DNA from: Limisphaerales bacterium
GTDB taxonomy: Bacteria; Verrucomicrobiota; Verrucomicrobiia; Limisphaerales; AAA164-E04
DNA length: 64,000 bases
Direction: 5' to 3'
Assembly: GCA_024761205.1 (NCBI GenBank)
Contig: JAMASS010000004.1
Location: 558,001 to 622,000 of the forward strand
Shown here piece by piece: positions 6,811-64,000 of this stretch. The position numbers and the translations under genes are program-made. The notes under the pieces are model-generated. The model saw nothing but the letters and a program-made list of their open reading frames with translations, searched no databases and was not told the origin of the DNA. Positions within the stretch are counted from its first letter, which is position 1. The number at the start of each line of letters is the position of its first letter.

Positions 6811-6886
6811 GCCTTTTTCTAACTCCCATTGAAAGGATCATCATGGACAATGCAGACTAGCAGGACGCCGCTGTAAGATCGGGGTT

Positions 6887-7270
6887 ATGGAATATGCGCG
6901 TCAAAAGTGGCAGTGTGCTGATCGGCGCCGAGGTCTTGAAAGGACCGTGCAGCGACTTCTGGAGAAAGTTCAGACCATCATTTCTCGGGAAATGAAAACG
7001 CTGGAGTCCGGCGATTCATTACCATCCGGCTTTCCGAGCGACGCCGTACCGTTCATTTGTGGTCTTGCATCCATCGGCGCCAAGAAATCCAGCAATGGCA
7101 CACATGTTGGAATTTGGGTTAGGCGAGACCAACATGAATTTGGCGACAAACTTCATAGCACGGCAAAAGCAGCTGATGCAGATTACGATAAAATCGGTTC
7201 CGTGGAAGGAAGATCGTCCATAATTAGTGAAAGAGGCGACCTCCATTTCAAAATTTACAATGCCATTTAG
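6887..7270 (+). CDS. Uncertain ORF in the decayed patch
   Basis: A 127-residue ORF divergent from the recombinase, starting 77 bases from its start codon. It is rich in Arg, Lys and Ser, with no signal peptide, membrane helix or motif that I recognise. The region around it contains proven pseudogenes, so it may be a relic or a chance ORF. Confidence 0.25.
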   Translation: MEYARQKWQCADRRRGLERTVQRLLEKVQTIISREMKTLESGDSLPSGFPSDAVPFICGLASIGAKKSSNGTHVGIWVRRDQHEFGDKLHSTAKAADADYDKIGSVEGRSSIISERGDLHFKIYNAI

Positions 7271-7474
7271 GACAAATCCGTAAAATGCAATATCCCAGAA
7301 AACTTAATCGACTGAGCAATGGAGTTTTGGGCAAGAGACTGATGGCGGACGGCGTGGCCCGCTATAACGGAAGCAGTGTTCCAACCAAGAATTGGGGCCG
7401 AGAATATAAATGTGTTTCCAAATGACAAGGACTTCTCAACCGTGGATGATTGTCAGGGGAAGCCTTGATTTGTC

Positions 7475-7896
7475 TTGAATGCCGAGCGTCGATATTGGGA
7501 TTCAGATTGTTTTCTCGGCTAGCTGCAAGAGGAGCATAGAAAGGCGGATTCGTGCGATCAATTTCTTAGGCATGCCAAGGCTGGAAAAATTGTAATAATA
7601 ACAGCTACATTGGCCCTAGCCGGGGTGTTGCATTTGAAAGGCAAGGAGAAAATCGATGCGGATCGCAAGGGAAAGATCGTCAACTTTTTTAAGCAGCCAT
7701 GTATCAAACCAGTTTCGGCCACATGAACAATCGTGAAAAACAGCAGGGATTTAATTGGGATCATGGCATTAAACCAAAGGACACGATTCATATAGCGACT
7801 GTTGCCCACGTTAAAGTAACGAATACATTTGATAAGGCTTTTATCGCTAAAAATCAGGAAAGAGGCAATCCGTTGATGACTATTAAACCATCTTAA
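7475..7896 (+). pseudogene. Broken PIN-domain (VapC-like) ribonuclease gene
   Basis: Read in frame from 7475, the sequence gives YWDSDCFLG, a PIN-domain first strand with its conserved acidic residue. An in-frame TAG at 7520-7522 stands where Trp is expected. It continues LQEEHRKADS...FLRHAKAGKIVIITA...HLKGKEKIDADRKGKIVNFF to a stop at 7724-7726. The protein resumes in another frame from about 7730 with WDHGIKPKDTIHIATVAH and FDKAFIAKNQERGNP, the C-terminal PIN strands and conserved Asp positions. One nonsense mutation and one frameshift therefore inactivate a VapC-type toxin gene. No antitoxin ORF was recognised upstream. Confidence 0.75.
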
Positions 7897-8061
7897 GTAA
7901 ATCAACTGGATTTCTTATAATTATGGCATGCTATTCTAGCCTAGTTCCTTCTGTTTAAGACAGTGATGATCCATCATCTCACCAATAGCTCGCACACGAT
8001 CATCAATGTGAAACAACGTGAAAAGTCACGGCAGTATCCCAGCGTGTAATGCAAGTCTTCT

Positions 8062-8430
8062 TCATGGCTTTCCTACGAAGAGTTCGCGGCACCCATTGAT
8101 CACCTGAGGATGCTCCTGGAAATTCGGCGAGGTATAAACCATTTCCAGAAGTTTGATCATGGCCTGAAAACGGTTGAGGTTTCTCTGCTGAGCCCGAAGG
8201 GTGGCGAGAATGGTGAGGACGGCTTGACGGGCGGCATTTTTACCGAACTCAAGATTAACCTCAGCGCCGACTTTCCCCGTGATCAGTGTACCCATCCGGT
8301 CGCAACGGCTCATGGCCGGAGACGGGGGGCAAGATTCCCGACTGATGACGAGGGGCTTGTAGGCCCTGACTGACTTCGGTGCGGGAGGAAGTTTTAGTCT
8401 GAGTGCCGTAAGTTTTGCTTCTGCATTCAT
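8062..8430 (-). pseudogene. Degenerate RidA/YjgF-family gene
   Basis: The N-terminus (AEAKLTALRLKLPPAPKSV, then YKPLV) and the middle (GTLITGKVGAEVNLE, KNAARQAVLTILATLRAQ) match RidA-family enamine/imine deaminases. The missing strand, ILPPVSGHEPLRPDGY, is found in the overlapping frame at about 8300-8370, so two compensating frameshifts interrupt the gene. The product stops after EHPQVINGCRELF, where the family normally continues about 35 residues to the GxLPxxxxVEI end. Truncation plus frameshifts make it non-functional. Confidence 0.75.
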
Positions 8431-8771
8431 TGGTATATCTGGTTCGGGGATTGAAGTGGGTGGGTAACGGGCCGTTCAAGACAGAAAGCCGCGATTGATG
8501 ATCGCAGCTTTCTGTGAAGTGACGTTTCGTGAATATTCTGGTGCTGGCGCTTAGTCTTCCTTGAGGCCCTTATGGCAGGCCTTACTTTCTCCAATTGGAG
8601 GTATATGCCAATCAGGTCTTTAAGTTCAGCCTCCGAAGCATTTTCTTCGCGCAGTTTGGCGACGATGGAGGTCTTGCCCTTGTGTCTCTTCTTCATGATC
8701 GAGGAAATGTTGTCCTCGTCCTTCTCATGATGATCGGCGCCAAGATTGGGCGCTAGGCGCGATGCCGTCAA
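8427..8771 (-). CDS. Uncertain ORF upstream of the RidA relic
   Basis: 114 residues, Lys/Arg-rich. An internal MKKRHKGKTSIVAKLREEN segment is faintly like the N-terminus of IS3-type OrfA transposases, but the similarity is too short to claim. Its stop overlaps the ATG of the RidA relic by four bases. It may be a relic itself; nothing else in it is recognisable. Confidence 0.25.
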   Translation of the reverse strand: MTASRLAPNLGADHHEKDEDNISSIMKKRHKGKTSIVAKLREENASEAELKDLIGIYLQLEKVRPAIRASRKTKRQHQNIHETSLHRKLRSSIAAFCLERPVTHPLQSPNQIYQ

Positions 8772-8921
8772 CGAGTGTTGTGGTGAGAGTGATCGGGAAC
8801 CAGAATATCTCTTTTCATGAAACTGGTTTGTTGACTTACGTTTGGTTAAGCACTGAAATTGACGCGGGAACTATAAGATCATTGAAGGTAGGTCAATCCT
8901 GTCGCCGGTCCAGATGGATAT

Positions 8922-9716
8922 CTAGGGTTGTGTTTGCAGCCGTTGGATCTGACTCTTTTGCAGCCAACCTACCCGTTGTTGTGGGTCTCGGATTTGATGC
9001 CATCCTTCCTTGTCATCAAGGATCTCAACCTCAACGCCGTCGATAAGATTGTGACTGCTCTTAGACTCTTCGAACGGTCCGAATCGAACGACGGCTTCGC
9101 CACTAGTGACAACGGCATATTGCTTTCCGAATCGTTCGTTGGCAGCGAACAGCAAGAGAATACCGGTAAAAAGAAATGCGAGGCCCATGAGCTTAGAGAG
9201 CGTCGACAGCAGACCTCCCTTGGCCGTCAAGAGGAGCGCGCACGCGCCGCAAGCCATCCAAGCCCAGAACGGAATGAGGGCAAGAAGCGTCCATTCGTTG
9301 AGGGTCAATTGAAGGAGAAACTGACGCCAGAAGTTTGTCGGGATGCTGGTGTTGGGACCAAGTTTTTCTCGGGCAAACTGGACATTCGCCAAGATATCTG
9401 GATCCCTTGGCGAGCGGTACAGCGCCTCGTAATACTGCGCGATTGCGTGTCCGATTTGTGATGATTGGTAGAGGGCGTTTCCGAGATTAAATCGGATAAC
9501 CGCGGAATCCGTGCCGCCGTCGATGAGCTGGCGATAGGCGTTTACGGCGGCTAGATACTCGCCTTGTTCGTAGAGAATGTTGGCGTCATTGAACTGAGTT
9601 TTCGGATCCGCAAGCACAGCTCCTGTGCCTGAGAGAATGAGACAGGAGAGGAGAGTGGTCTTTTGTATGACGACGAGGACCGGACGCCCGATAGTTACCG
9701 ACGCTCTTGAGATCAT
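8922..9716 (-). CDS. batE: BatE-like TPR and SH3 domain membrane protein
   Basis: 264 residues. A signal-like segment (about 18-36) is followed by TPR repeats (about 40-110: NDANILYEQGEYLAAV, NLGNALYQSSQIGHAI, YYEALYRSPRDPDIL). Two transmembrane helices lie around 140-190, then a bacterial SH3-type domain (about 200-258, VRFGPFEESKSS...GWHQIRD...VGWLQ). This order is the BatE architecture. Its start codon overlaps the batD stop as ATGA, indicating translational coupling. It is the last gene of the MoxR/Bat operon, which is thought to act in envelope stress or protein maturation; direct function is unproven. Confidence 0.88.
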   Translation of the reverse strand: MISRASVTIGRPVLVVIQKTTLLSCLILSGTGAVLADPKTQFNDANILYEQGEYLAAVNAYRQLIDGGTDSAVIRFNLGNALYQSSQIGHAIAQYYEALYRSPRDPDILANVQFAREKLGPNTSIPTNFWRQFLLQLTLNEWTLLALIPFWAWMACGACALLLTAKGGLLSTLSKLMGLAFLFTGILLLFAANERFGKQYAVVTSGEAVVRFGPFEESKSSHNLIDGVEVEILDDKEGWHQIRDPQQRVGWLQKSQIQRLQTQP

Positions 9717-11542
9717 CGTGCCGTTGAATCGGGGAGATTCTGTAATGTAACGAGAGCACGCTCCGCTCGTTCGGTAAGTTTAACTAATTCTTCGCTGGAA
9801 TTGACCGACGCGTAGCGGGACTGGTTGCAGATTTGAAATAATTGGTCAAGGGCGTTTCTGGTCTCCGAATCAAGACCGTGATTGCGAAGTTTCGTTTCGA
9901 TGACGGCTTCGGTGATCGCATTCGCAGGGAGATCCAATCGTTCTCCAATCTGTTCCTGCAAAAGTCGGAATAGAGTGGCGAAGAATTCGCTGGACTGATT
10001 TCGGGCAGCCATATCTCGGAGGTCTCTGAGGCTTCTTTCGACGACAGTTTTCACTCGTTTTTTGCGTAGGGCTCGAGGGTTGCGATTGAGGGTGTTGCGT
10101 CGTGTCCGGTAGACGTAGCTGGCAATCCAGGCGGCCAAGGGAATGACTTGTAACCAAAGGAAAGCGGGTTGCCGTAGCCAGGGAGGACTGACGGTGCTGA
10201 TGGTGTCGAGGCGCGGTTTGATATGCACAATGTTGGTGGCGATATTTAGGGGGGGCTGGTTGGGGCCGGCATTGGCGACGATGGTCGGCTGAGTCGCGGT
10301 GGTGAGGTTGGGTTTTACGACTAATGGAATAGGTGGTTGGGTCAATGTTTTGTAGCGCTCCTCCAAAGGATCAAAAAAGCTGAGCTCGATCTCAGGCAGG
10401 CTTTCGATTTCGGCATTGTTGGGAATGACGATCTTTTCAAAGGTTTTTATGCCGCTGAGCCCGAGTTTGTCGGTAGGGGTTACGGTGGCGGTTTCGGGGT
10501 ATTGCTTGAACTCTCGCCAAGACTCGAAAGACGGCATTTGCAACGCTTCGAGCGCTCCTCTGCCCCGGATTCTCATGGTGATGGTGATCGGGTCACCGGC
10601 CGTGACGTCCGTGGGAGAGGCTTGTACATCCATGGTGAACTTACCGACGCCCCCGTTAAAGCTGTCCGGTTGACCTTCCTCGGGAAGGGGCTTCACATTC
10701 AAACTGGCCGGCTCGTATTCAAGGGTCACATCGCGTCGCACGGTCGAACCGAGATCGACGAAGCCTGGGAAGAACGAATTAAACGCCCCTCTCTGGCGAC
10801 GTGCGGAGTTGTTGCGTAAGTATAGAGGGACTTTCCACGTAACCGGACCGATGGAGAGCTCTCCGGTTTTGACAGCGCGAACGAGGTAATGGAACGTCAC
10901 TCGGTCATAAATACTGTTTCCGACTTGCGTTCGGGATTGGCTGGGCTGGCCGACTTCATCAATGACGAATCCATCCGAGGGAATCACCGGCTTCTCCTCC
11001 AGCTTGGCGTTTAACTCGAAGAGTTCGACAGCCATTTGGAACACCTCCCCAACGTAGACCTCCTGCTTAGAAATCTGCACCCGGATAAAGGCATATTGGC
11101 TGTAGTCCCGGCCCTTTGACGCGGTCAAACGAAGGGCTCTGGTCGTGTAGGTTTTTCCCTGAATCTTGGATTCAATGGCTGGGATGGTGTAGGTCCCGAC
11201 TTTTTCGGGCACGATGTTGAATTGGTGAATCACGGAATGGGTTTCCGTGCGGCGACCATTGACAATGCTGATGTTCGAACTGCTTAAGGGGCCCTCATAG
11301 GTCACCGTCAAACCGTCAATCTCCGGTATGGTCGGGGGGGTGTCGGGCTTGCAATTCGTGTAGCGGAGTTGAAGGATGACCGGTTCCCCCATGGGCACTG
11401 AGTTCGCCGTCAAGGCCGCGTTGTACATGTGTCGGGCGGTTCCGGGATTCAAGGGATGTTGCCCTTGGCCGCTCATGGCAATTGCCAGCATTGCCGTCAA
11501 AACCAAATCAGGCCAACAAGGATTCTTCCGATTGATATTCAT
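9713..11542 (-). CDS. batD: BatD (oxygen-tolerance type) membrane protein
   Basis: 609 residues. An N-terminal export signal (LVLTAMLAIAMSG) is followed by a long periplasmic region with tandem beta-sandwich repeats (for example GEPVILQLRYTN, VGEVFQMAVELFE, AGDPITITMRIRG). A transmembrane helix lies near residues 468-485 (FLWLQVIPLAAWIAS), then a cytoplasmic helical tail of about 110 residues. This matches BatD, the large partner of BatA/BatB vWA proteins. It lies between a small membrane ORF and batE on the minus strand with almost no spacing, consistent with one transcript. Confidence 0.9.
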   Translation of the reverse strand: MNINRKNPCWPDLVLTAMLAIAMSGQGQHPLNPGTARHMYNAALTANSVPMGEPVILQLRYTNCKPDTPPTIPEIDGLTVTYEGPLSSSNISIVNGRRTETHSVIHQFNIVPEKVGTYTIPAIESKIQGKTYTTRALRLTASKGRDYSQYAFIRVQISKQEVYVGEVFQMAVELFELNAKLEEKPVIPSDGFVIDEVGQPSQSRTQVGNSIYDRVTFHYLVRAVKTGELSIGPVTWKVPLYLRNNSARRQRGAFNSFFPGFVDLGSTVRRDVTLEYEPASLNVKPLPEEGQPDSFNGGVGKFTMDVQASPTDVTAGDPITITMRIRGRGALEALQMPSFESWREFKQYPETATVTPTDKLGLSGIKTFEKIVIPNNAEIESLPEIELSFFDPLEERYKTLTQPPIPLVVKPNLTTATQPTIVANAGPNQPPLNIATNIVHIKPRLDTISTVSPPWLRQPAFLWLQVIPLAAWIASYVYRTRRNTLNRNPRALRKKRVKTVVERSLRDLRDMAARNQSSEFFATLFRLLQEQIGERLDLPANAITEAVIETKLRNHGLDSETRNALDQLFQICNQSRYASVNSSEELVKLTERAERALVTLQNLPDSTAR

Positions 11543-11545
11543 GAA

Positions 11546-11869
11546 TTATTCGCACGCCTCCCAAGCGTCACAAGATATCCTTAGCTCGACTCGTATATTA
11601 TCGTTGGAGATTAAATCATGCTGATTGACGCCGCGTACTGTCTTCAACCATTCAACCGCGTCTTCGGTCCCGGGGCGGTCCGTATCAATTTGGTCTTTCG
11701 GAACGCCGGGGCAGTTTTTGGCCGGTAAAAATATGGCCAACCGAGTCTTGCTGACAGCGGCGGCGATGGCGTTAGCGTTCCAAAGCATTACCACCAGGAG
11801 CAAGAGCAAGCCGACGAAGGGACCGGGGCAATGGAGTAAACCTAAACAGAAATGGCGATAGAGCCGCAT
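11546..11869 (-). CDS. Small single-pass membrane protein within the bat operon
   Basis: 107 residues from the ATG at 11869; a TTG at 11893 would extend it by eight. One hydrophobic helix (about residues 8-40, LLLLLVVMLW) precedes a soluble C-terminal domain with two Cys (NCPGVPKD and SCDAWEACE). It fills the gap between batC and batD with 3 bases to batD and 17 bases to batC, so it is probably translated. I know no standard Bat component of this shape, and the function is unknown. Confidence 0.6.
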   Translation of the reverse strand: MRLYRHFCLGLLHCPGPFVGLLLLLVVMLWNANAIAAAVSKTRLAIFLPAKNCPGVPKDQIDTDRPGTEDAVEWLKTVRGVNQHDLISNDNIRVELRISCDAWEACE

Positions 11870-11886
11870 TGTTTTGTGACAGGGGT

Positions 11887-12732
11887 TTACCAATCCTTGA
11901 ACGCGTTTCTAGGGAGGCGTTTCTGGGGCGGACGGAAGATCATGGCTCGAGCTTGATCGCGCTCAGCATCGAGCAGTTGCTTGGCTTGCTCCGGTGTCAT
12001 TTTTCCGGGAGAGGGTTCTGTCGCATAGGAATCTTTTTTGTCCTCGCCACTCTGTTGGGCTTCGGAAGGTTGAGAGTCCTGTTGCTTGGGCTCATGCTGC
12101 TGTTCCGATTCGTTCGGTTGCGGTTGGGATTCTTGTTCTTGTTCCTGGTTTTGATCTCCGGATGGTTCCTGCGGCTTTTGCTGGCCGTTGTTCTGTTGCT
12201 GTTGTTGGAGCTCTTCGAGGCGCCGCTTGACGAAGTCCAGATTCTCCTGAGCCAGGGTGTCGGCTTCATTGATGGTGACCGCGTGTTGATAGCGTTGAAT
12301 GGCCTGTTTCCAGGCGGCCATCTTTTGTTCCGGATCGGCAGCGGATTCGCCCAAACGAAACAGCGAGTTGCCCATGTTGTAGTGAGCTTGTTGTTGCAGT
12401 TTGAGGTCGGGTGCGAGTGAGGCAGCGTCAAATTGCTCGACCGCATCAGTCATTTGTCCGGCCCTGTAGGCTGCGACGCCCGCGTTGTAGGTAAAGCGCG
12501 GGTCATCTGGGTTCTCAAGCGAAAGGTAGCGATAAATCTCCAGGGCGTCTTCATAGCGGCCTTCCTGGAAATAGCGCTTGGCCTCCCCGGCTGAGTCAGC
12601 ATGAGATTTGGTGGCGGTTTCGGCGAAGAAAAGGGTGAGCAGCAGCAGCCAGCTGATCCGCTGCATTTGCCTAAATGCCACCGAAATCTCTCGGTGAGAT
12701 GCAAGGTCAGTCTTCATTCTCTTCCTAGGCAT
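11887..12732 (-). CDS. batC: BatC-like TPR protein
   Basis: 281 residues from the ATG at 12732, which overlaps the batB stop as TAATG. An upstream extension to 12855 lies inside batB and is rejected. A signal segment (ISWLLLLTLFFAE) is followed by four TPR-like repeats (AKRYFQEGRYEDALEIYR, YNAGVAAYRAGQMTDAVEQF, YNMGNSLFRLGE, AIQRYQHAVTINEADTLAQE). A Gln/Glu/Pro-rich low-complexity tail then ends in a conserved basic motif (FRPPQKRLPRNAFKDW). The order TPR then charged tail is typical of BatC, a periplasmic scaffold partner of the Bat vWA proteins. Confidence 0.87.
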   Translation of the reverse strand: MPRKRMKTDLASHREISVAFRQMQRISWLLLLTLFFAETATKSHADSAGEAKRYFQEGRYEDALEIYRYLSLENPDDPRFTYNAGVAAYRAGQMTDAVEQFDAASLAPDLKLQQQAHYNMGNSLFRLGESAADPEQKMAAWKQAIQRYQHAVTINEADTLAQENLDFVKRRLEELQQQQQNNGQQKPQEPSGDQNQEQEQESQPQPNESEQQHEPKQQDSQPSEAQQSGEDKKDSYATEPSPGKMTPEQAKQLLDAERDQARAMIFRPPQKRLPRNAFKDW

Positions 12733-13799
12733 TAATTGACATGTTCTCTTAGGACGGTTGCCGATCGAATCGGTCCGTCCGGACGTTTGACTTGTCTTTG
12801 GTCGACGACGAACAGCTCCGCCAAAAGGCATAGGATGGCCAAAGCTAGCGGCCATTGAAATCGCTCGTGATATTGCCTCGTCAGCCGCGACGATAATTCA
12901 CCTTTGGGTAGTGGTTCCAGTCCGCTTTCATAAAGCATTTCCAATGATTTCGTATCTCTTAGGTGAATATACGATCCTTGTCCAGCCGTTGCCACTTGGC
13001 GGAGGAGGGCTTCATTGAGGCTGGATTTGACAACGTTCCCTTGATTGTCTTTAAGGTAGGTGATTTGGCCGTTATCGTCGGTAATTTTAAGGAGTTCTCC
13101 AGAAGTGGTACCGACCCCGACGGTGAAAACCCGGTAGCCCTGAGCGGCCGCGATCTCGGCGGCCTCTACCATACCTTCTTCGTGATCCTCGCCGTCGGAA
13201 ATGATGATGATGGCGCGGTAGTTGTCATTCGACGCATCGAACGCCTTTTTGGCTGTTTCCAAAGCTTCCTTTAAGGCAGTGCCACCCTGCGGAATGATTT
13301 CTGTGCTGAGTGCGTTCAGGCTTTGCCGAAAAGCCTCATCGTCCAGCGTTAGCGGGCATTGGAGGAAGGCGGTCCCGGCGAAAGCGACCAATCCAAGGCG
13401 ATCCCGGCGGGCGAGGGCCATCAGGTCAAAGGCGGCCAGGCGGGATCGTTCCAAACGATTGGGAGCGATGTCTGCAGCCAACATGCTTTTGGACGTGTCA
13501 ATCGCAACGACGATGTCGAGCCCTTTCTGACGGACTTCTTCCCAATGGAACCCGTATTGAGGTCGGGAGAGGGCGACGAGTAGAAGGCCTACGGCGATCG
13601 TGAGGAGTCCCATTCTGACGAGCTGACGTTGATGGGAGACCCCCACAGTCAAGGCGGCCAAGAGTCTGGATTTGACAAAGACATTGATGAGCTTCTGGTG
13701 CTTTCGCCTCGACCAGCGAAAGAACCAGGCGAGCAGACAGATAACCACTGGCACAAGCCAGAGGATTTGCGGATGCTCGAATCTCAGAAAAGTGTCCAT
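12732..13799 (-). CDS. batB: BatB vWA-domain membrane protein
   Basis: 355 residues. Two N-terminal transmembrane helices (about 13-28 and 62-80) precede a von Willebrand A domain with the MIDAS motif DTSKSM (near residue 98), a conserved Thr in the GTAFLQCPLTLDD loop and Asp in ISDGEDHEEG. A C-terminal transmembrane helix (LALAILCLLAELFVV) is typical of BatA/BatB. It is encoded two bases after batA. Metal-dependent protein binding in the periplasm is expected. Confidence 0.92.
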   Translation of the reverse strand: MDTFLRFEHPQILWLVPVVICLLAWFFRWSRRKHQKLINVFVKSRLLAALTVGVSHQRQLVRMGLLTIAVGLLLVALSRPQYGFHWEEVRQKGLDIVVAIDTSKSMLAADIAPNRLERSRLAAFDLMALARRDRLGLVAFAGTAFLQCPLTLDDEAFRQSLNALSTEIIPQGGTALKEALETAKKAFDASNDNYRAIIIISDGEDHEEGMVEAAEIAAAQGYRVFTVGVGTTSGELLKITDDNGQITYLKDNQGNVVKSSLNEALLRQVATAGQGSYIHLRDTKSLEMLYESGLEPLPKGELSSRLTRQYHERFQWPLALAILCLLAELFVVDQRQVKRPDGPIRSATVLREHVN

Positions 13800-13800
13800 T

Positions 13801-14799
13801 TCAGGGCAGGCGGCGCCAAACTGTGTGATTCAAAATGGTTTCCAAGAGGATGAGCACGAATCCCGGCAGCAGAAACCAATGAAAGATCTCTTCATAGTTC
13901 TGGTATTCGGTGATTTCGACCTCTGATTTCTCAAGTTGATCGATTTCTTCGTAGATTTCAATCAGTGTATCGGTGTTGTCCGCCCGGTAATATTTTCCGT
14001 TGGTGATCTTGGCGATTTCCGTAAGCGTGTCCTCGTCGATATTGACCTCCACTTGGGCATAAACTTTTCGACCGAAGGGGCCTTGTTGGGGAAATGGTGC
14101 GGGCCCACGCTTGCCGACACCGATGGTGTAGATCTTGACGTCGAGGCTCTCGGCGGCTTCGGCAGCGGTTAGCGGAGGGACTTTTCCGGCGTTGTTTTGG
14201 CCGTCCGTCATCAGGATCATGATGCGGCTCTTGGAGACGATATCCCGCAGGCGATTGAGACCGGCCGTCATTGCGGAGCCGATGGAGGTGCCATCTTCAA
14301 TGGTGCCGAGATTCAGACGCTCCAGATTTTGCAGCAGAAAATCGTGATCGAGTGTCAGCGGCGCGGCGATGTAGGCGCGTCTGGCGAATGCGACGAGTCC
14401 GATGCGATCGTTGCGGCGTTTGTCGATGAACTCCTTAAGCACGTTTTTGGCAGCCGCCAGGCGATTGACGCGGTTGCCGAGGATTGTGAAATCTTCCGCG
14501 GCCATGCTTCCTGACAAATCCAAGGCTACCACAATATCAATGCCGCTGGCGGTGATGGCGGTTTCTCCCTCGCCGAGGCGGGGGCGCGCCAGAGCAATGA
14601 TACAAAGTGCGAGCGCCAGCCAGCGAAGCTTCGTGCTTATGCCACCGGCTTGGGAGCGCCTGAGGTTGATGATCCCTTCCACGATTTTTACGGAGGAATA
14701 GAGGAATGCCGCGCCACGACTTCGCCTGCCTCGGATCCACGCCAGAATGGGCAGGAACAGAAGGAGTATGAGCATGTAGGGGTGGACGAAGCTAAGCAT
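13801..14799 (-). CDS. batA: BatA vWA-domain membrane protein
   Basis: 332 residues. It has an N-terminal hydrophobic segment, a second helix (WLALALCIIALARP), then a vWA domain with MIDAS DLSGSM, the downstream Thr loop (RAYIAAPLTLDHD) and the Asp of MTDGQNNAGKVPP. A C-terminal transmembrane anchor (FHWFLLPGFVLILLETIL) closes it. It is the paralogue of BatB and directly precedes it in the operon. Confidence 0.92.
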   Translation of the reverse strand: MLSFVHPYMLILLLFLPILAWIRGRRSRGAAFLYSSVKIVEGIINLRRSQAGGISTKLRWLALALCIIALARPRLGEGETAITASGIDIVVALDLSGSMAAEDFTILGNRVNRLAAAKNVLKEFIDKRRNDRIGLVAFARRAYIAAPLTLDHDFLLQNLERLNLGTIEDGTSIGSAMTAGLNRLRDIVSKSRIMILMTDGQNNAGKVPPLTAAEAAESLDVKIYTIGVGKRGPAPFPQQGPFGRKVYAQVEVNIDEDTLTEIAKITNGKYYRADNTDTLIEIYEEIDQLEKSEVEITEYQNYEEIFHWFLLPGFVLILLETILNHTVWRRLP

Positions 14800-14827
14800 G
14801 AAATTCAGTCGCAGGCCAAGGGCGGGA

Positions 14828-15460
14828 TCATTGTGGTTCTTGCGGTTGATTCGTGGGCTGCCGGGGATCCGCTTGGGCGGTCGGCTGGGGCTCTGGTGTT
14901 GGCGATTCCATCAGTGAGGGTTCTGTTTCGCTAACGAGCCGGAAGGCCGCTCTATGAAGCTGTTTAAGTTCGTAGGCTTCCGGCTCGGACTTTGCGAATT
15001 TCACCAGGTCGCATTCATTTAGAAAATTGGCCAACAACTGCTTGTGCTCGTCGGAAAGGTGGCGGCTGCCTCTGAGTTCCTCCAAAAATTCTTCGGTGGT
15101 TCGCTCCGGGGCGTGGAGGTCGAATCGATCTTCCAAGTATCCGCGAATCGCATCCGAAACCATCACGCAGAACCGTTCCGGATCGTGCAGATGTTCCAGG
15201 GCGGTTTCTAGCCGCTTTCGAGCGAGTTCGTGTGGCGACTCCTTGGGTTGGGCTTTTTCCTTGGGAGTTTCTTGCTGGCGTTTTTTCCAATAGCGATAGG
15301 CCCAGTAAGCCAAGGCGAGAACGGCAAGGACAAGGAGCACCCACCACAACCCAGCCCAGGAGGAGGGTAGGTCGACAACGGAGCGGATATCATGAATGTC
15401 AGAGAGTGTACTCTGATCTTCCGTAGACGGCACGACAAGGGCGGAGTTGGTCGCTTCCAT
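14828..15460 (-). CDS. DUF4381-like membrane protein of the MoxR/Bat operon
   Basis: 210 residues. A short N-terminal region with IHDIRSVVDLPSSW is followed by one transmembrane helix (LWWVLLVLAVLALAYWAYRYW), then a cytoplasmic helical domain (residues about 75-175, with YLEDRFDLHAPERTTEEFLEEL) and a Pro/Gln-rich tail. This is the layout of the DUF4381-type protein found between DUF58 and BatA genes. Its ATG overlaps the DUF58 stop (TGATG), so the two are translationally coupled. Confidence 0.85.
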   Translation of the reverse strand: MEATNSALVVPSTEDQSTLSDIHDIRSVVDLPSSWAGLWWVLLVLAVLALAYWAYRYWKKRQQETPKEKAQPKESPHELARKRLETALEHLHDPERFCVMVSDAIRGYLEDRFDLHAPERTTEEFLEELRGSRHLSDEHKQLLANFLNECDLVKFAKSEPEAYELKQLHRAAFRLVSETEPSLMESPTPEPQPTAQADPRQPTNQPQEPQ

Positions 15461-16413
15461 CAGCGGTACCGTCGTTTTTCTCGATTCTCGAAGAATCGGC
15501 TCAATGCGGTGATGTAGGGTTGGTCTGTTCGGAGTTGGATACCGTCGATTCCGGCAGATCGGAGGAGTCGGTCCAGTTCGTCATGAGCTTTCTTTTGTCG
15601 GGTGACAAATGCAGCTCGTTTTTTGGCGTCTCCCGTATCGACTTCGACAACATGACCGGTTTCCGCATCCTTGAGGACGATCTTGCCGATGTTAGGCAGG
15701 CTCATCTCGAACGGATCGGTGATCTGAACGGCGACCAAGTCATGCTTTCGTTTCGTTTGGCGGAGGGATGTAAGGGAGGCCTGCCTCAGGCCATCTGACA
15801 TCACGACGCGTCGCCGGAGGTGTGCTTCGATCTCTTGGCGCGTGGCTTCCGTCTGGCCGAGAAAATCGGAAATGAGCACGACGATGGCACGTTGATTAGT
15901 GATCCGAAAAAGGAATTCAAGGGCAGTGTTAAGGTTGGTTCCTCGGCGGCTCGGTTCGAAAAACAGGATATCCCGAATGACCCGCAGGGCATGAAAGCGG
16001 CCTTTGCGGGGAGGGATGAATTTCTCGACTATGTCAGTAAACAAAAGCAGACCGACTTTGTCATTATTCTTGACTGCTGAAAATGCAAGTATTGAGGCGA
16101 TTTCTGCTGCTAGCTCTCGCTTGGATTGTTCTCCGGAACCGAACAACCCCGATCCGCTAAGGTCGACCAGGAGCATGACGGTCAGCTCCCGCTCTTCGAC
16201 GAACTTCTTGATGAAGGGATGATTCATCCGGGCAGTGACGTTCCAGTCGATCGTTCGAACATCGTCACCCGGCTGATATTCGCGAACTTCATCGAAGTTC
16301 ATGCCTTGTCCCTTAAAGACGCTGTGGTAATGCCCAGCTAGCGACTCGGAAACCAGCCGATTGGTCCGAATCTCGATTTGGCGAATCTTCTTGATGATTT
16401 CGCGAGGGATCAT
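15460..16413 (-). CDS. DUF58 protein
   Basis: 317 residues, cytoplasmic. It has the DUF58 core motif (FDEVREYQPGDDVRTIDWNV) near residues 38-57, followed by a vWA-like fold with DLSGSG replacing a full MIDAS (final Ser changed to Gly). The C-terminal half carries LVAVQITDPFE and the terminal FFENREKRRYR. DUF58 proteins are obligate neighbours of MoxR ATPases. It lies between moxR (34 bases upstream) and the DUF4381-like gene. Confidence 0.93.
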   Translation of the reverse strand: MIPREIIKKIRQIEIRTNRLVSESLAGHYHSVFKGQGMNFDEVREYQPGDDVRTIDWNVTARMNHPFIKKFVEERELTVMLLVDLSGSGLFGSGEQSKRELAAEIASILAFSAVKNNDKVGLLLFTDIVEKFIPPRKGRFHALRVIRDILFFEPSRRGTNLNTALEFLFRITNQRAIVVLISDFLGQTEATRQEIEAHLRRRVVMSDGLRQASLTSLRQTKRKHDLVAVQITDPFEMSLPNIGKIVLKDAETGHVVEVDTGDAKKRAAFVTRQKKAHDELDRLLRSAGIDGIQLRTDQPYITALSRFFENREKRRYR

Positions 16414-55072: not shown

Positions 55073-56270
55073 CCTAAGATATAGGGAGTTATATTTAGGC
55101 AGTTTAGCGCGCCGTCTTGGATTTGCTGCTACTTCGGACATGGAATGAGGAGAATCCACCGGGGTAGAACACCGGGAAAAGGGATACCGCCAAGAGTGTC
55201 ACGGTCATCGAGCTGATGAATATGTCCACCCACTTGAGACAGCGGCCGCCAAGTGTGTTTGAAGCGCAAGACTCCCATCGCCAAGCCGGTGCCCTACTAA
55301 TGCCCGCAGATTGCCGAAGCGACCTCAGCGTGCGCACCGGCACGGCCTTGGAGCGTTCCAAAGTGCGCCGCAAATGGGCAATCGCCGTTACCTGTGTTTG
55401 ACCGAGCCTCAAGGGCGGGGTGAGCATGAAACCGCACCGAGAATATCGGCGTCAGCCAAAAGACCGCCTGCTTCAGGCTTGGGCCGCGCGAAGGCAAGGA
55501 CGCCTCGTTCTCCGGCCCGGGCTGAGGCGGATGAAACTTACTTTAGCGGGAAACATGCCAACATGAGCAACGCTCGCCGAAGGCCGCTTAAAGGCACCGG
55601 ATGCGGGCACCGTGAGCAAAAGAGAGGGAGGGGGGCGGCGGGAAAGTTTTGCGCTCGGTTAGGAACCCGGAACCGCCAAGGGCGGGCGCCGTGGGCAAGA
55701 GGGCGGCGGGAAAGACCGGACGAGGCAGCGGCTTATGCGGGATTCGCCCATGAAGGAGATCAATCACTCCGAATACGTGTGCGGCACGGTGCACCCGAAC
55801 GGTGTGGAATCCTTCTGGCCCATGCTGAAACGGGCATATAGGGGCACGTTTCACAAAATCTCCCCTAGGGACCTGAATCAGTGCATTCAAGAATTTTCGT
55901 CGGCAAGCTCGGGGCTTCGCCAAGCGGACACGCTGGCGCAAATGACTGCGCTGGCCGTCGGCCTTGTTGGCCGTCGGCACGGCCCTTTCATCGCTGATAA
56001 CGGACTGCCTCTCGGGAAGGGGGGGCATGAGCAGAGTCCACGCTTCAAGGGCGCGACGCCCGAGGGCATTGATGCGAGCAGCCATCCGATTGGGAACCTT
56101 TCCAGCGTCGGCTTGATCGGGCCTTGCCGAAGCTCTAATGGAACGACCTAGCTGCCGTTGGATGATTACCCCACCCCCGAGGTGATGGCGAGAAACCGAG
56201 TGGACAATGCCCTCTATCCCGCAAAGACTTTTGCCGCTAAATCAAGTGTATAATTCCCAAATCTTTAGCC
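55073..56270 (+). mobile_element. IS1595-type insertion sequence, degenerate
   Basis: Imperfect terminal inverted repeats bracket a wrecked transposase. The left end reads CTAAGATATAGGGAGTTATA (from about 55075) and the reverse complement of the right end reads CTAAAGATTTGGGAATTATA (to about 56268). Both are followed inward by a TTTAGCG element (55103 and 56239). The length of about 1.2 kb suits the family. No clear target duplication is left. Confidence 0.65.
55160..56000 (+). pseudogene. IS1595-family transposase, frameshifted
   Basis: Fragments in different frames follow the family order. First come a zinc-ribbon remnant and SVRTGTALERSKV and RKWAIAV, then CLTEPQG. Next is EADETYFSGKHANMSNARRR with the DDE Asp, at about 55520-55580. 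Then come the YVCGTVHPNGVESFW region with the Asn and FWPMLKRAYRGTFHKIS, ending RQADTLAQMTALAVGL. At least three frameshifts are required, so it cannot be expressed intact. Confidence 0.8.
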
Positions 56271-59733: not shown

Positions 59734-60663
59734 CTAGCGAGCAATAACTTTGCTCCGGGACATTCGGGCTTTGAGAAAATCGAATAGCTGCAACTCCAGC
59801 GGTTGCTCGGTGGTGAGAAAATGGTAGCCGATACCGTTCTTGTTACAAATAGACTCCACGGTCGCAAGGTGTTTCTCAAGTCTTTCGAGGTAGCCTTTAC
59901 GCGCCTGATTAGGGTCTACATAGACCTCTTTCCCAGACTCCACATCCTGAAAGAAATTGGCTTGATCGAAAGTAAAGCGGCGTTCGGCTGGGTCGAGAAG
60001 CTGGAACACCTGAACTTCGTGCCCGCAGGCCCGAAGCAAACGCAGGCGATTTTCCAAGGCCTCAATAGGCGCCAACAGGTCTGAAATCAACACCACCAGC
60101 CCGCGCCTGCGAACCAACTCGACGATTCGCTGCAGCGGGCTTTCAAGATCGGTTGAAGCGCCACTCGGCGGCTTCTCCAGAGCGAGCATGATTCGCCGGA
60201 GATGACCGCTGCGGTTTCGCGCGGGAAGGAAGTCATTGATCTTGTCCGCAAACGATAGCAGCCCCACCGCATCGCCTTGCTGGAAGAGAAAATAACCCAG
60301 GGTGGCTGCCAGTGTGTTGGCGTAGTGGTATTTTGTATAGTCCCGGCTGCCATACTCCATTGACCGACTTTGATCCACCAGCAGATGACATCGGAGGTTG
60401 GTCTCATCCTCAAACTTTTTGATGTAGTAGCGATCACTCCGAGCATAAAGCTTCCAATCGAGGTAACGGGGATCATCTCCCGGCGAATATTGTCGATATT
60501 CGCTGAACTCGACGGAAAAGCCATGGAAAGGACTGCGATGGAGCCCGTTCCAAAAACCCTCGACGATCACCTTCGCCCGCAGTTCAAGGTTTTTGACAGC
60601 CATGAGGGCTTGGGGACTGACGAACCCCTGCTGACCCAAGACACTCTTTCCTTCTCTTGCCAA
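59734..60663 (-). CDS. DUF58 protein, second copy
   Basis: 309 residues. The DUF58 core motif FSEYRQYSPGDDPRYLDWKL lies near residues 52-71, followed by a vWA-like fold with LVDQSRSMEYG and, later, GLVVLISDLLAP. Compared with the copy at 15460-16413, the metal-site loop is more complete (Asp-x-Ser-x-Ser kept as DQSRS). No MoxR gene lies upstream; the adjacent upstream DNA is the cassette array. It could share the MoxR of the main operon. Confidence 0.93.
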   Translation of the reverse strand: MAREGKSVLGQQGFVSPQALMAVKNLELRAKVIVEGFWNGLHRSPFHGFSVEFSEYRQYSPGDDPRYLDWKLYARSDRYYIKKFEDETNLRCHLLVDQSRSMEYGSRDYTKYHYANTLAATLGYFLFQQGDAVGLLSFADKINDFLPARNRSGHLRRIMLALEKPPSGASTDLESPLQRIVELVRRRGLVVLISDLLAPIEALENRLRLLRACGHEVQVFQLLDPAERRFTFDQANFFQDVESGKEVYVDPNQARKGYLERLEKHLATVESICNKNGIGYHFLTTEQPLELQLFDFLKARMSRSKVIAR

Positions 60664-60723: not shown

Positions 60724-60817
60724 GCAAACAAAAACGCCCACCCCGGAAAAGCGGAGCGGGCGAAGCGGGCGCAGAAGAAAAGGCGGTTGCCGCAAGGCCA
60801 GCCCTCAGCCGATGCCG
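60724..60817. repeat. About 94-bp repeat, copy 1 (contains a minus-strand terminator)
   Basis: The segment from GCAAACAAAAACGCCC to CAGCCGATGCCG recurs with few changes at 61242-61338. Read on the minus strand, CGCCC...GGGCG forms a hairpin followed by TTTTTG (about 60730-60762), so it can terminate the array transcript before the DUF58 gene. Confidence 0.8.
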
Positions 60818-60818
60818 C

Positions 60819-61151
60819 CTAATAATCAAACACCTTATATCCGGCGCGGAGCAACAAACTAAGGGCAGTTCCCCCGGAAAGAAACAACAGGAACGCCGCT
60901 CCCAGCAGGACCGGAACTCGCTGCCGCCGACTGCCCCACACCGCCACCGGAAGCAACATGACCGCGTTTAGGAGAGTCAGAAACACAACGACCAAACCTA
61001 GGCACGCCTCTGCAAGCGAAAATCCGGACAAAGCTGGAAGGCAAAAATCAAAGAAACCAAAAACAACAGCGACCACAAAGATCGCCCGTGCCCACCAAAG
61101 CCGCTTTGTCAAGCATTTCTGATTGGGGACAAAGTAGGTTTTCAAGTCCAT
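60819..61151 (-). CDS. Small membrane protein of the cassette array, copy 4
   Basis: 110 residues from the ATG at 61151 (MDLKTYFVPNQKCLTKRL). A reading from 61211 includes a relic of the upstream tail and is rejected. Three hydrophobic segments are present, with VMLLPVAVWGSRRQRVPVLL in the middle. It is a close homologue of the gene at 61326-61658 and more distantly of those at 61722 and 62293. Shared marks are an N-terminal [YI]F[LIV] motif with a basic patch and the LPVxxWG motif. Function unknown. Confidence 0.7.
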   Translation of the reverse strand: MDLKTYFVPNQKCLTKRLWWARAIFVVAVVFGFFDFCLPALSGFSLAEACLGLVVVFLTLLNAVMLLPVAVWGSRRQRVPVLLGAAFLLFLSGGTALSLLLRAGYKVFDY

Positions 61152-61168: not shown

Positions 61169-61237
61169 TCAGCGTCGTTCGTTGCGCCCGTCTCTCGTCA
61201 GATCCCGGCAACCGTAAATCTTAAAGCTATCCATCCC
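61169..61237 (-). pseudogene. Relic of the B-protein tail before copy 4
   Basis: Reads GMDSFKIYGCRDLTRDG then stops at 61169. It corresponds to the last residues of protein B (GIESWQIYGCADLQRNGP). It sits between the repeat at 61242 and the start of the small membrane gene. Confidence 0.7.
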
Positions 61238-61241
61238 GCCG

Positions 61242-61338
61242 GCAACAAACAAAAAACCCGCCCCGGAAAAACCGAGGCGGGCGAAGCGGGCGCAGGGGAA
61301 AAGGCGGTTGCCGCAAGGCCAGCCCTCAGCCGATGCCG
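61242..61338. repeat. About 97-bp repeat, copy 2
   Basis: Matches 60724-60817. It follows the 110-residue membrane gene whose stop (61326-61328) lies inside the repeat. Confidence 0.8.
61251..61281 (-). terminator. Intrinsic terminator within repeat copy 2
   Basis: On the minus strand CCCGCC pairs with GGCGGG, extended by three inner pairs after one mismatch, and is followed by TTTTTT. It ends the transcript of the small membrane gene at 61326-61658. Confidence 0.8.
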
Positions 61339-61658
61339 TAACGTGCGGCGCGGTCCAATAAACTAAGGGCTTGCATCCAGAAACCGTATAACAGGAACGC
61401 CACTCCCAGCAGGGCCGGAACCCTTTGCCGCCAACTGCCCCACACCACCACCGGAAGCAAAACGACAGCATTCAGGAGCATCAGAAAGTCAAAGGCCAAA
61501 CCAAAGCATGCCTCTGCAAGCGAAAATCCAGACAAAGCCGCATTCTCAAACATACTAATTACATTAGCAAATACAACGATTGCCAGAGCAGTGTATAACC
61601 GCTTGGTCAAAGCGGACTGCTCCGGTATGAAGTAATGTCTGATTTTGTCTTTGTCCAT
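61326..61658 (-). CDS. Small membrane protein of the cassette array, copy 3
   Basis: 110 residues, starting MDKDKIRHYFIPEQSALTKR with AGGAG upstream. It has three hydrophobic segments, SGFSLAEACFGLAFDFLMLL in the second and VVLLPVVVWGSWRQRVPALL in the third. The SGFSLAEAC stretch and LPVxVWGS.RQRVP are shared with copy 4, so the two come from a recent duplication. Function unknown. Confidence 0.72.
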   Translation of the reverse strand: MDKDKIRHYFIPEQSALTKRLYTALAIVVFANVISMFENAALSGFSLAEACFGLAFDFLMLLNAVVLLPVVVWGSWRQRVPALLGVAFLLYGFWMQALSLLDRAARYGIG

Positions 61659-61683
61659 TTTCTCCTGTCCGTTCTTCTTAGGG

Positions 61684-61737
61684 TCAGGGCGCGTCGGGAG
61701 GGGGCGGAGGGTCGGTCCGCCTTAAATCCCGGCAATC
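61684..61737 (-). pseudogene. Relic of the B-protein tail before copy 3
   Basis: Reads DCRDLRRTDPPPPPDAP and then stops. The CRDL core matches the YGC(A/R)DL tail of protein B. It overlaps the 3' end of the 99-residue membrane gene in a different frame. Confidence 0.5.
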
Positions 61738-62021
61738 CATTCAAAAAATATACTCACCCAAAAAACCAGAGGGACGACGGACAGCAACCATGCCAGCCGC
61801 TTCTGCCGACCGATTCCCCATATCGCAACGGGAAACAAGAAAAACGGGATGGCACACATACAGGCACCGAAAAAATCAAGTAATAAGGGATTCGGGCGGG
61901 GAGAGGAAACGATAGCCAAGATCCATGCCAAATAAACGAACAGTGACCCAATCAGCCGGTGTTTCACTTTGCCGAACCGTCTGCCAAGGAAGTATTCCTT
62001 GAAGTTAAAATTTCGCTTCAT
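61722..62021 (-). CDS. Small membrane protein of the cassette array, copy 2
   Basis: 99 residues. The basic N-terminus with FKEYFLGRRFGKVKHRLI is followed by hydrophobic segments near 22-40, 46-68 and 77-95. It has FLFPVAIWGIGRQKRLAWLL, the family LPVxxWG-type motif with a basic patch. Homologous to the other three small membrane genes but diverged. Function unknown. Confidence 0.7.
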   Translation of the reverse strand: MKRNFNFKEYFLGRRFGKVKHRLIGSLFVYLAWILAIVSSPRPNPLLLDFFGACMCAIPFFLFPVAIWGIGRQKRLAWLLSVVPLVFWVSIFFEWIAGI

Positions 62022-62046
62022 ATTTCATCCTCTCCCCGCCTCAAGG

Positions 62047-62190
62047 TTACGGCCCATTTCTTTGCAGGTCCGCGCATCCATAGATCTTATAATTTTCCAT
62101 GCCCTCGAACCCATGCTCCAATGCCTTAGTTTTGAAAGCTTCCATGCATGTATTCAACGGCCGGTTCGCCATTCGGTTGGAAAAAGGCAA
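62047..62190 (-). pseudogene. Relic of the B-protein C-terminus before copy 2
   Basis: About 47 codons: PFSNRMANRPLNTCMEAF, KALEHGFEGMENYKIYGC and ADLQRNGP, ending in TAA. It aligns end to end with the last 47 residues of protein B (MANQPLYECMRLF, KALEHGFEGIESWQIYGC). No start codon or upstream part remains. Confidence 0.85.
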
Positions 62191-62214: not shown

Positions 62215-62526
62215 CTAACGAAACCATGATATCAGGGCTGCTACCAGAGTCGCTAACGGAGGAATAGACAACAAGACCGCCGCGATCTTTTGTCAGCGTT
62301 TTCCCCATAAGATCACCGGAAGCATGACAACCAAGCCCACAAGAAGTATGGAGTATCCGATCATGTCCCGAGGATGGCTGCGTTCACCACTGAATCTCAG
62401 AGAAGGCATGAACACTCCACTCAAAAGATAAGCCGCGAGTGCCCATAAAAGACGCCAATAGAAACTATTGAAACGTTTGCCAAGAAAGATTTTTCGGTAA
62501 TCCCGTTTCACTGTCCTGCCTTTCAC
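62215..62526 (-). pseudogene. Small membrane protein of the cassette array, copy 1, with in-frame stop
   Basis: Starts at 62526 (MKGRTVKRDYRKIFLGKRF), seven bases after the B-protein stop. It runs to VVMLPVILWGKR, where a TGA at 62293-62295 ends a 77-residue product. The same frame continues QKIAAVLLSIPPLATLVAAL to a TAG at 62215-62217. That matches the third hydrophobic segment of its homologues, where Arg stands at the TGA position. A single CGA to TGA change explains the truncation. Confidence 0.75.
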
Positions 62527-62532
62527 TTGTGG

Positions 62533-63022
62533 TTAAGGACCGTTGCGCTGCAAGTCCGCGCATCCGTAAATTTGCCAACTTTCTATTCCCTCGAATCCAT
62601 GTTCCAGAGCCTTATCGGTGAACAACCGCATACATTCATACAGAGGCTGGTTCGCCATCCAGTTGTTAAAGAAAACGCCTAGGGCTTCCGCCATTTCGTT
62701 GTGTTTAGTTCCCCCGTAGGTAAGATTGTTTATTGTAATCAAAGGGTGAAGATACCAAGGACCTTCGGAACCTCTCGGCACTGAAATTGTTTCTGACCAC
62801 AGCACGATGGCTCGGGGTTGGCGTCCCGCCCTTTGATACTCCGCCCCGGTGCTGGTCACTTGCGGAATGCCGAAGGCGTCGCACCACTCTTTCCCGGCGG
62901 TATTGCAGCCCATGAGGATGACGAGGCGGTAGGGATACTGGTTCACGTTTTCGCTGTCGGACGGAGCCGACGGTGGCCACAGACTGCGCCCCGAACTCCT
63001 GATTGATCTGAACGGCGTTCAT
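62533..63022 (-). pseudogene. Array protein B, caspase/CHAT-like, frameshifted
   Basis: Starts at 63022 with an ATGA overlap on gene A (MNAVQINQEFGAQSVATV). After a one-base shift near 62965 it continues SAPSDSENVNQYPYRLVILM and GCNTAGKEWCDAFGIP. The strand-GC motif resembles the catalytic Cys block of caspase-like and CHAT peptidases, but no paired His motif was placed with confidence. The C-terminus is KALEHGFEGIESWQIYGC. The readable 3' part alone (137 codons from a GTG at 62946) could still be translated. Closely followed by a small membrane gene, as expected of a two-gene cassette. Confidence 0.65.
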
Positions 63023-63693
63023 GAGGTTTCGGGCGGCGGCGGGCGGAAGGCGCGAGCGTCGATGCACTGCGGGATGTTCTCCGTGGCCGGATCGAAACCC
63101 ACCAGGGGCTTGCCCTCCCAGTTTTCAAATTGAATGATGCAGTCGCCGTCCGGCCGGCCATCCTCCAAAAAACCCATCCAAACATAAGGAGCATCCGGAA
63201 GACAATTTCCGCCGTTCGGATAATCGTCAACACTTCCCTGCACCCGTTCTTTGTATTCCTCCCAGGTCTCGGTGAGATACCAGTAAGTGCCATAATCATC
63301 ACCGGTGGCACACAGTTCGGCGTAGGCATCCCGGTCCGGGTTCAGGTCGTTGCGTTCCCCGCCCACCACGGCGTTGCGGGCGTTGCACGCCGAGCGAAAC
63401 CAGATCGGTTGAGGTTTGTAACGGAACCCCAGACCCAGAGCACCGAGACCGATGATTTCCCCTTCTTTTGAGTGGATCGGCTCAATCTCATCCATAATCT
63501 CACAACGCTTTTCCTGCTGATACAACCGCCATGGATGGTAGAGTTTTCCCTGCCAATGTGCAGGCCATTGATGGTAGAAGAAACTATAGAAATATCCCCC
63601 TTTTCCCGGGGACAGAATGGCTGCCGCCTTTATCCGCCGGGAGGGCGGGTCGTAAAACATATACCAGTCTTTGTCCGGAGATTTGATCTCCAC
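63019..63693 (-). CDS. Array protein A, unknown function
   Basis: 224 residues with a GTG start (VEIKSPDKDWYMFYDPPSRR) and a GGAGGG site upstream. The protein is rich in aromatic residues and Gly/Asp, without a signal peptide or membrane helix. It ends DARAFRPPPPETS. Its stop overlaps the start of gene B. The C-terminal 22 residues recur at the right edge of the window in a second copy, and its N-terminus recurs at 63717-63806. I do not recognise the family. Confidence 0.7.
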   Translation of the reverse strand: MEIKSPDKDWYMFYDPPSRRIKAAAILSPGKGGYFYSFFYHQWPAHWQGKLYHPWRLYQQEKRCEIMDEIEPIHSKEGEIIGLGALGLGFRYKPQPIWFRSACNARNAVVGGERNDLNPDRDAYAELCATGDDYGTYWYLTETWEEYKERVQGSVDDYPNGGNCLPDAPYVWMGFLEDGRPDGDCIIQFENWEGKPLVGFDPATENIPQCIDARAFRPPPPETS

Positions 63694-63823: not shown

Positions 63824-63931
63824 TTACGGCGCCAGAGCTTTCCAGACGGGGAAGCGTAGCCCCACTAGGTTGGCGCAGGCGGTAACCACAGCCTGCGCCC
63901 CGGACTCCTGATTGATTCGAACGATGTTCAT
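63824..63931 (-). pseudogene. N-terminal relic of a second protein B
   Basis: 35 codons from the ATG at 63931: MNIVRINQESGAQAV matches MNAVQINQEFGAQSV of the longer copy. The similarity then ends at TACANLVGLRFPVWKALAP before a TAA. Confidence 0.75.
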
Positions 63932-64000
63932 GAGGTTTCGGGCGGCGGCGGGCGGAAGGTGCGGGCGTCGATGAAGGGCTGCGGGAGGTTCTCCGTAGCC
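63928..64000 (-). CDS. C-terminal end of a second protein A, cut by the window edge
   Basis: Reads ATENLPQPFIDARTFRPP and PPETS to a TGA that overlaps the next ATG, the same junction as in the complete A-B pair (ATENIPQCIDARAFRPPPPE). The rest lies beyond base 64000. Confidence 0.75.
   Translation of the reverse strand, partial: ATENLPQPFIDARTFRPPPPETS

Follow-up and report, generated by a model that had tools for sequence, protein, structure and literature searches.

Orphan tails of a predicted caspase-fold gene among small membrane genes in a Limisphaerales bacterium: a putative polyimmunity-type array

In S. aureus, the T7SS toxin gene tspA is followed by 2 to 16 divergent polytopic membrane immunity genes (tsaI), and in many strains tspA fragments matching its 3' part are found inside the tsaI cluster (PMC9484751). 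Orphan effector pieces with partner genes are also known from CDI and Rhs systems (PMC3150448), and the authors of the CDI work raised the question of why any toxin pieces persist. In addition, Tox-Caspase polymorphic toxins and polyimmunity loci have been described (PMC3482391). Here, we analyzed a locus of a Limisphaerales bacterium that resembles each of these systems in part. The window, i.e., the whole stretch of DNA analyzed, comprises 64,000 nt of contig C34 (C34:558001-622000) of a genome in 92 contigs.

On its minus strand, the window carries A genes, followed by B, the membrane gene m1, and three further membrane genes (m2, m3, and m4), each preceded by an orphan tail of B, and then the DUF58 and BatA genes (Table 1). 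The original prediction, which placed three start-less B tails in front of these membrane genes, was confirmed, and the stop of each tail lies 17-25 nt ahead of the next membrane-gene start. The similarity of the tails to B is also above chance. Tail 1 shares 70-71% amino acid identity with the C-terminus of B over 45 aligned residues (tblastn E 9e-17) and scores 79.5 bits with an HMM of the B C-terminus built from three long copies, and tail 3 scores 16.9 bits with the same HMM; by comparison, the best score among 200 dinucleotide shuffles of the region, with any match in 184, was 3.8 bits. Tail 3 moreover shares 88% DNA identity with a tail of contig C11, along a stretch of about 93 nt. Tail 2 is the weakest of the three against B itself and gives no protein score, because its frame is broken just upstream; it shares 86% DNA identity over 51 nt with a tail on contig C24, GCRDLRRTDPPPLPDAP followed by a stop (score 77, shuffle maximum 24).

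Table 1. Features of the tail and membrane-gene region, with positions counted within the window.
Feature	Position	Strand	Description
Second copy of type-1 spacer	63872..63973	-	Repeat, ahead of A5
A5	63019..63693	-	A family member; partner-like genes of first head type
Repeated spacer ahead of B	62963..63064	-	Repeat family D3; reads as type-1 head C-terminus relic
B	62533..62946	-	C-terminal part of caspase-fold (clan CD) domain; large relic, not whole gene
m1	62293..62526	-	Membrane gene adjoining B, truncated
Orphan B tail 1	62047..62190	-	47 codons, without good start
m2	61722..62021	-	Intact small membrane gene, 99 aa
Orphan B tail 2	61684..61737	-	Short; CRDLRRTDPPPPPDAP, then stop
m3	61326..61658	-	Intact small membrane gene, 110 aa
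Terminator-like hairpin (intrinsic type) between m3 and tail 3	61256..61282	-	Inside 93-nt repeat 61246-61338
Orphan B tail 3	61169..61237	-	GMDSFKIYGCRDLTRDGRNERR, then stop
m4	60819..61151	-	Intact small membrane gene, 110 aa
Terminator-like hairpin (intrinsic type) after m4	60735..60762	-	Inside 93-nt repeat 60725-60817
DUF58 gene	59734..60663	-	Downstream border of insertion

B had been taken for a complete gene, which did not hold. A search of the genome with B revealed two further B arrays, on contigs C11 and C24. On C11, the B sequence forms the C-terminus of a 939-aa open frame, referred to as the head, to which B in the window is 57-62% identical. The C11 frame continues upstream through the other half of the domain, including the sequence NFFWFGHGH, whereas B in the window and on C24 starts after this sequence. 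Thus, B has lost its upstream half on both C34 and C24, and B in the window retains the GC cysteine motif but not the N-terminal half of the domain with the GHG histidine.

The full domain is a caspase-fold domain of clan CD, as judged from the fold matches of a structural model and a conserved His/Cys pair. An AlphaFold model of the relative L094, computed from a 16-sequence alignment that included B of the window, reached a pLDDT of 91.5. Compared with solved folds (VIA), it matched SAVED-CHAT (Z 15), gingipain RgpB (Z 13), and separases and caspases (Z about 11-12), and Foldseek gave an E of 9e-9 to SAVED-CHAT. In the alignment, the expected catalytic pair is kept, with the GHG histidine in 15/15 and the GC cysteine in 16/16 sequences, and the YGC-DL motif of the tails corresponds to the last strand of the domain. 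Searches of the PDB by sequence gave no match for B or the wider domain. An assignment to peptidase family C25 (gingipain) was rejected, as Pfam Peptidase_C25 was matched by 2/11 members with a best E of 0.028, and the score of member 1, 13.2 bits, fell short of the cut-off (23).

The pairing of tails and membrane genes extends beyond the window to the C11 and C24 arrays, and the A genes are in turn separated by apparent relics of a second C-terminus type. A membrane-gene profile identified 16 copies in the genome, all within the C34, C11, and C24 arrays, of which 13 are stop-free. The damaged copies are m1, whose homology runs on through in-frame stops to about 62214 (seen in a profile match with 2 stops and in the translation), and two other remnants, also with stops. 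At all 13 junctions measured, including that of m1, a tail stop lies 4-27 nt ahead of the membrane start, with a distance of 17-27 nt in 11 of the 13. A model of m3 consists of three long helices (pLDDT 78.8), and searches of Pfam and NCBIfam with the membrane genes gave weak matches, none of them significant. Behind both m4 and m3 lies a 93-nt repeat containing a strong terminator-like hairpin, suggesting that each cassette may carry its own terminator.

The genome thus holds 13 intact membrane genes against one full B domain among about 16 B pieces. This is in line with the original proposal that the small partner was selectively retained, as are the orphan tails in three other genomes described below. 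Such retention is not universal, however, since m1, the direct neighbor of B, has decayed. That the membrane genes travelled as B-membrane units is supported as well, as the tails are remnants of B that evolved under constraint: the long tails show dN/dS values of about 0.1-0.3 with dS near saturation and differences mostly at third codon positions, compared with dN/dS values of 0.3-1.4 for the membrane genes (all rough values from short sequences). This third-position divergence indicates that the tails diverged as coding sequence and originated in different full-length B proteins.

Between C11 and C24, a block of 476 bp is 100% identical, extending from the last part of one tail, across a membrane gene and the spacer, into the first part of the following tail. 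The identity collapses inside the tail at both ends of the block, suggesting that cassettes recombine there if the assembly is right. Provided that it is, this block shows directly that cassettes have been exchanged by recombining within tails, although identical repeats in an assembly could be mis-joined. The adjoining C11 cassette is 89% identical to one on C24, and the order differs.

MoxR and DUF58 genes are adjacent in the congeners G006 and G007 and in the family members G002 and G005, and the C34 insertion is missing from the congeners, which were compared for presence or absence only. In locus L015 (C34:612000-631999), the head and arrays, about 9.5 kb, lie between MoxR and DUF58 (6664-16159). 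On C24, the 5' part of DUF58 occurs again with 98.9% identity, fused to a type-1 tail, which suggests either recent movement between the two places or a mis-join in the assembly. Specifically, locus L017 (C24:28000-47999) carries near-identical copies of the DUF58 5' part and of the region upstream of it (9009-9504 and 7407-7569), one of them fused in frame to the type-1 tail. Elsewhere in the window (55735-56151), fragmented frames resemble, by eye, the C-terminal part of an IS1595-type transposase.

The head proteins place the arrays in a broader context. The C34 array starts, beyond the window, with a head of 598 aa, whose N-terminal part is 95% identical to that of the C11 head, although their C-termini are unrelated. 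In the C11 head, a small length difference near the N-terminus shifts the frame. The heads have a signal-peptide-like start, weak PPC/DVUA0089-type domain matches, and PPC-like and Ig-like repeats. A third head, in locus L045 (C45:30000-49999, 7735-13173), has the common N-terminal domain and a weakly DUF3238-like C-terminus, and two tandem HEAT+TM genes lie behind it, the first overlapping the head stop. Thus, a separate tandem family lies behind each of the three head C-terminus types, namely A genes, 3-TM membrane genes, or HEAT+TM genes. A constant N-terminal region with varying C-termini, and a partner family directly downstream of each type, often in tandem, is a polymorphic-toxin architecture (PMC3482391) as judged from the gene layout.

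Behind the C34 head, five A genes stand in tandem (L015, 9020-13152). The repeated sequences between them look, when read in frame, like relics of the last part of the type-1 head C-terminus. Compared singly with the C34 head C-terminus, these type-1 spacers score above shuffles only in the A2-A3 spacer and the C24 fusion; the remaining spacers are linked to it only via the near-identical C24 fusion frame. A2 and A3 are 87% identical with a dN/dS of about 1.15. No relatives of the A family were found in 320 genomes of the order (single sequence) or 387 genomes of the phylum (profile), and A proteins gave no match of weight in the PDB by sequence.

Single-sequence searches with B of the family genomes and of 387 genomes of the phylum matched only the own genome, and a first scan of genome contigs gave no match; relatives were reached only by a three-sequence profile. 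When 320 genomes of the order were searched by profile (E 0.1 or better), the caspase-fold domain was found in 43 genomes, this one included, mostly at the C-terminus of frames of 650-1700 aa. According to the records, the domain-bearing loci belong to Limisphaerales and other Verrucomicrobiota. Directly downstream of the domain in nearly every relative locus are 1-3 copies of a gene for a ~290-aa protein family that has no Pfam, NCBIfam, or plasmid match and that none of the arrays of this genome was found to contain. Up to three tandem divergent copies stand behind the candidate effector in L088 (2688-5007), L100 (6777-9601), and L103 (2637-4466). Homology of the A genes to this family was unsupported (hhalign prob 0.1). 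A 3-TM gene is also found downstream in four loci (L074, L075, L076, and L079), and the profile of these relatives matches the membrane genes of the window (hhalign prob 93.9, E 1.6e-7). PADLOC found no system.

Orphan B tails are present in three other genomes. In L079, an orphan tail is followed by a broken ~290-aa gene and then an intact 3-TM gene, in L080 an orphan tail accompanies an intact ~290-aa gene, and in L100 a tail separates the first ~290-aa copy from the second (score 76 against a shuffle maximum of 40). Retained partners are also seen in unrelated genera, and in L079 and L080 no effector accompanies them. A tail at every tandem partner was ruled out, as ~290-aa tandems without tails occur in six loci (L087, L088, L090, L092, L103, and L109). 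Complete effector-partner units in tandem are found in L077, L106, and L110, and this is the ancestral state required if, as originally proposed, later units displaced most of B while keeping the membrane gene. That proposal gains from these loci but not from B in the window, which is itself a relic.

Taken together, we consider it probable (roughly 0.6), from gene architecture and a modelled fold, that this region holds the polyimmunity-type array of a secreted, polymorphic, interbacterial effector. The caspase-fold domain would be a proteolytic effector against other bacteria and the membrane proteins its putative immunity partners, a role suggested by architecture only. Evolving in a relaxed or diversifying manner, the partners would be kept to protect against effector variants of the past or of foreign origin. 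For the growth of the array, we infer recombination at the conserved 3' end of the effector gene, where an incoming tail-membrane cassette is inserted, so that the new partner lands behind the effector and the old partner is pushed downstream behind an orphan tail. The tails may therefore mark where cassettes were inserted by homologous recombination, and no full B would then be needed at each spot; growth of this kind predicts tails where no full B formerly stood and would in part replace the earlier displacement scheme. More tentatively, Limisphaerales may share an undescribed effector/partner system across the order, with immunity cassettes docking by homology at the very 3' end of the effector gene and the tails forming a countable record of insertions. 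Several findings weigh against an immunity array: in other genomes the ~290-aa family, rather than the membrane genes, is the most frequent partner, m1, directly behind the longest of the B remnants, is truncated, the frame of the C11 head is shifted, and the tails are not constant among the relatives.

The main rival explanation, which we regard as unlikely, is that the caspase-fold domain is a peptidase for processing, i.e., for maturation or surface release, of a secreted adhesin-like protein. The membrane and ~290-aa proteins would then be maturation partners or inhibitors amplified for dosage, and the tails mere leftovers of duplication and 5' deletion. A processing or signalling role is also possible for a clan CD domain, and clan CD peptidases in secreted proteins frequently have processing functions (PMC3482391); the PPC-like and Ig-like repeats of the heads and the partner directly downstream in nearly every locus would also fit. 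However, the three head C-termini are followed by families unrelated to one another, which is not what this explanation leads one to expect, the copies are divergent rather than uniform, with dN/dS often 0.6-1, and the partner copies kept without an effector in L079 and L080 fit poorly to dosage or maturation.

It is more doubtful that the tails are kept as start signals of the membrane genes (promoter or ribosome-binding context), or as mere homologous docking sites, with their protein ancestry incidental. The spacing of 17-27 nt between tail stop and membrane start at 11 of the 13 junctions, the terminator-like hairpins ahead of short tails, and the ends of the 476-bp block inside tails would all be explained in this way. 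Against it, no sigma-70-like promoter was found in the region (a weak test outside proteobacteria), the longer tails show clear codon-level constraint, and tandem partners elsewhere do without tails; the docking part is compatible with the immunity array preferred here. Neutral decay, i.e., a dying duplication cluster in which membrane genes survive by chance, being short, is very improbable, since the damage to m1 and the two other membrane remnants, the decapitation of B on C34 and C24, and the frameshift of the C11 head are set against 13/16 stop-free membrane copies versus one full domain among the B pieces, several pairs with dN/dS near 0.3-0.6, and partner retention that recurs in unrelated genera.

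As a candidate immunity array, the locus resembles TspA/TsaI in that 3' effector fragments lie among divergent membrane partner genes. However, TspA is a membrane-depolarizing toxin of Firmicutes, whereas the putative effector here is a caspase-fold domain; a tail stands at nearly every membrane gene here, unlike in TspA/TsaI; and tail-bounded exchange is evident here, whereas tsaI genes showed little recombination (PMC9484751). The TspA/TsaI class has a DUF443 partner and an LXG-type toxin, and neither the membrane genes nor the heads gave a DUF443 or LXG match. As in CDI and Rhs systems, start-less 3' effector pieces, each with a small partner, are arrayed downstream of the main gene and shuffled between loci. 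In CDI and Rhs orphans, however, the toxic C-terminus is as a rule preserved, and the sequence ahead of it is homologous to the main gene (VENN), while the tails here are mostly cut to 15-50 codons at the extreme 3' end, with the catalytic residues absent, and so cannot reload a toxin.

Like Tox-Caspase proteins, the large, putatively secreted proteins described here have variable C-termini and tandem partners, and they carry the caspase fold, with its His and Cys, at the very C-terminal end. By contrast, the Tox-Caspase partners in PMC3482391 are Imm36 and Imm57, whereas the 3-TM, ~290-aa, and A partners have no significant Pfam or NCBIfam match, and the phyletic spread of Tox-Caspase given there does not include Verrucomicrobia. 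The exchange also recalls the EsaG and TipC arrays of Firmicutes, in which immunity paralogues recombine via short conserved blocks (PMC9484751), although those blocks lie inside the immunity gene and the ones here in a remnant of the effector gene. Compared with the literature and libraries searched, the partner families, the phylum, and tails cut to the extreme 3' end as recombination sites appear, as far as shown, to be new.

Overall, orphan toxin/immunity arrays have mainly been described for CDI, Rhs, and T7SS, and the present one would add a phylum in which few such systems are on record. It also contributes families that databases do not name, the 3-TM and ~290-aa partners and a caspase-fold effector. 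If the tails are docking sites, an identical tail-bounded block is expected in two loci, and one was found. As marks of past exchange events, the tails would make the growth of immunity arrays testable and, if docking at the effector's 3' end is true, cells would add or swap immunity genes while leaving the weapon unchanged.
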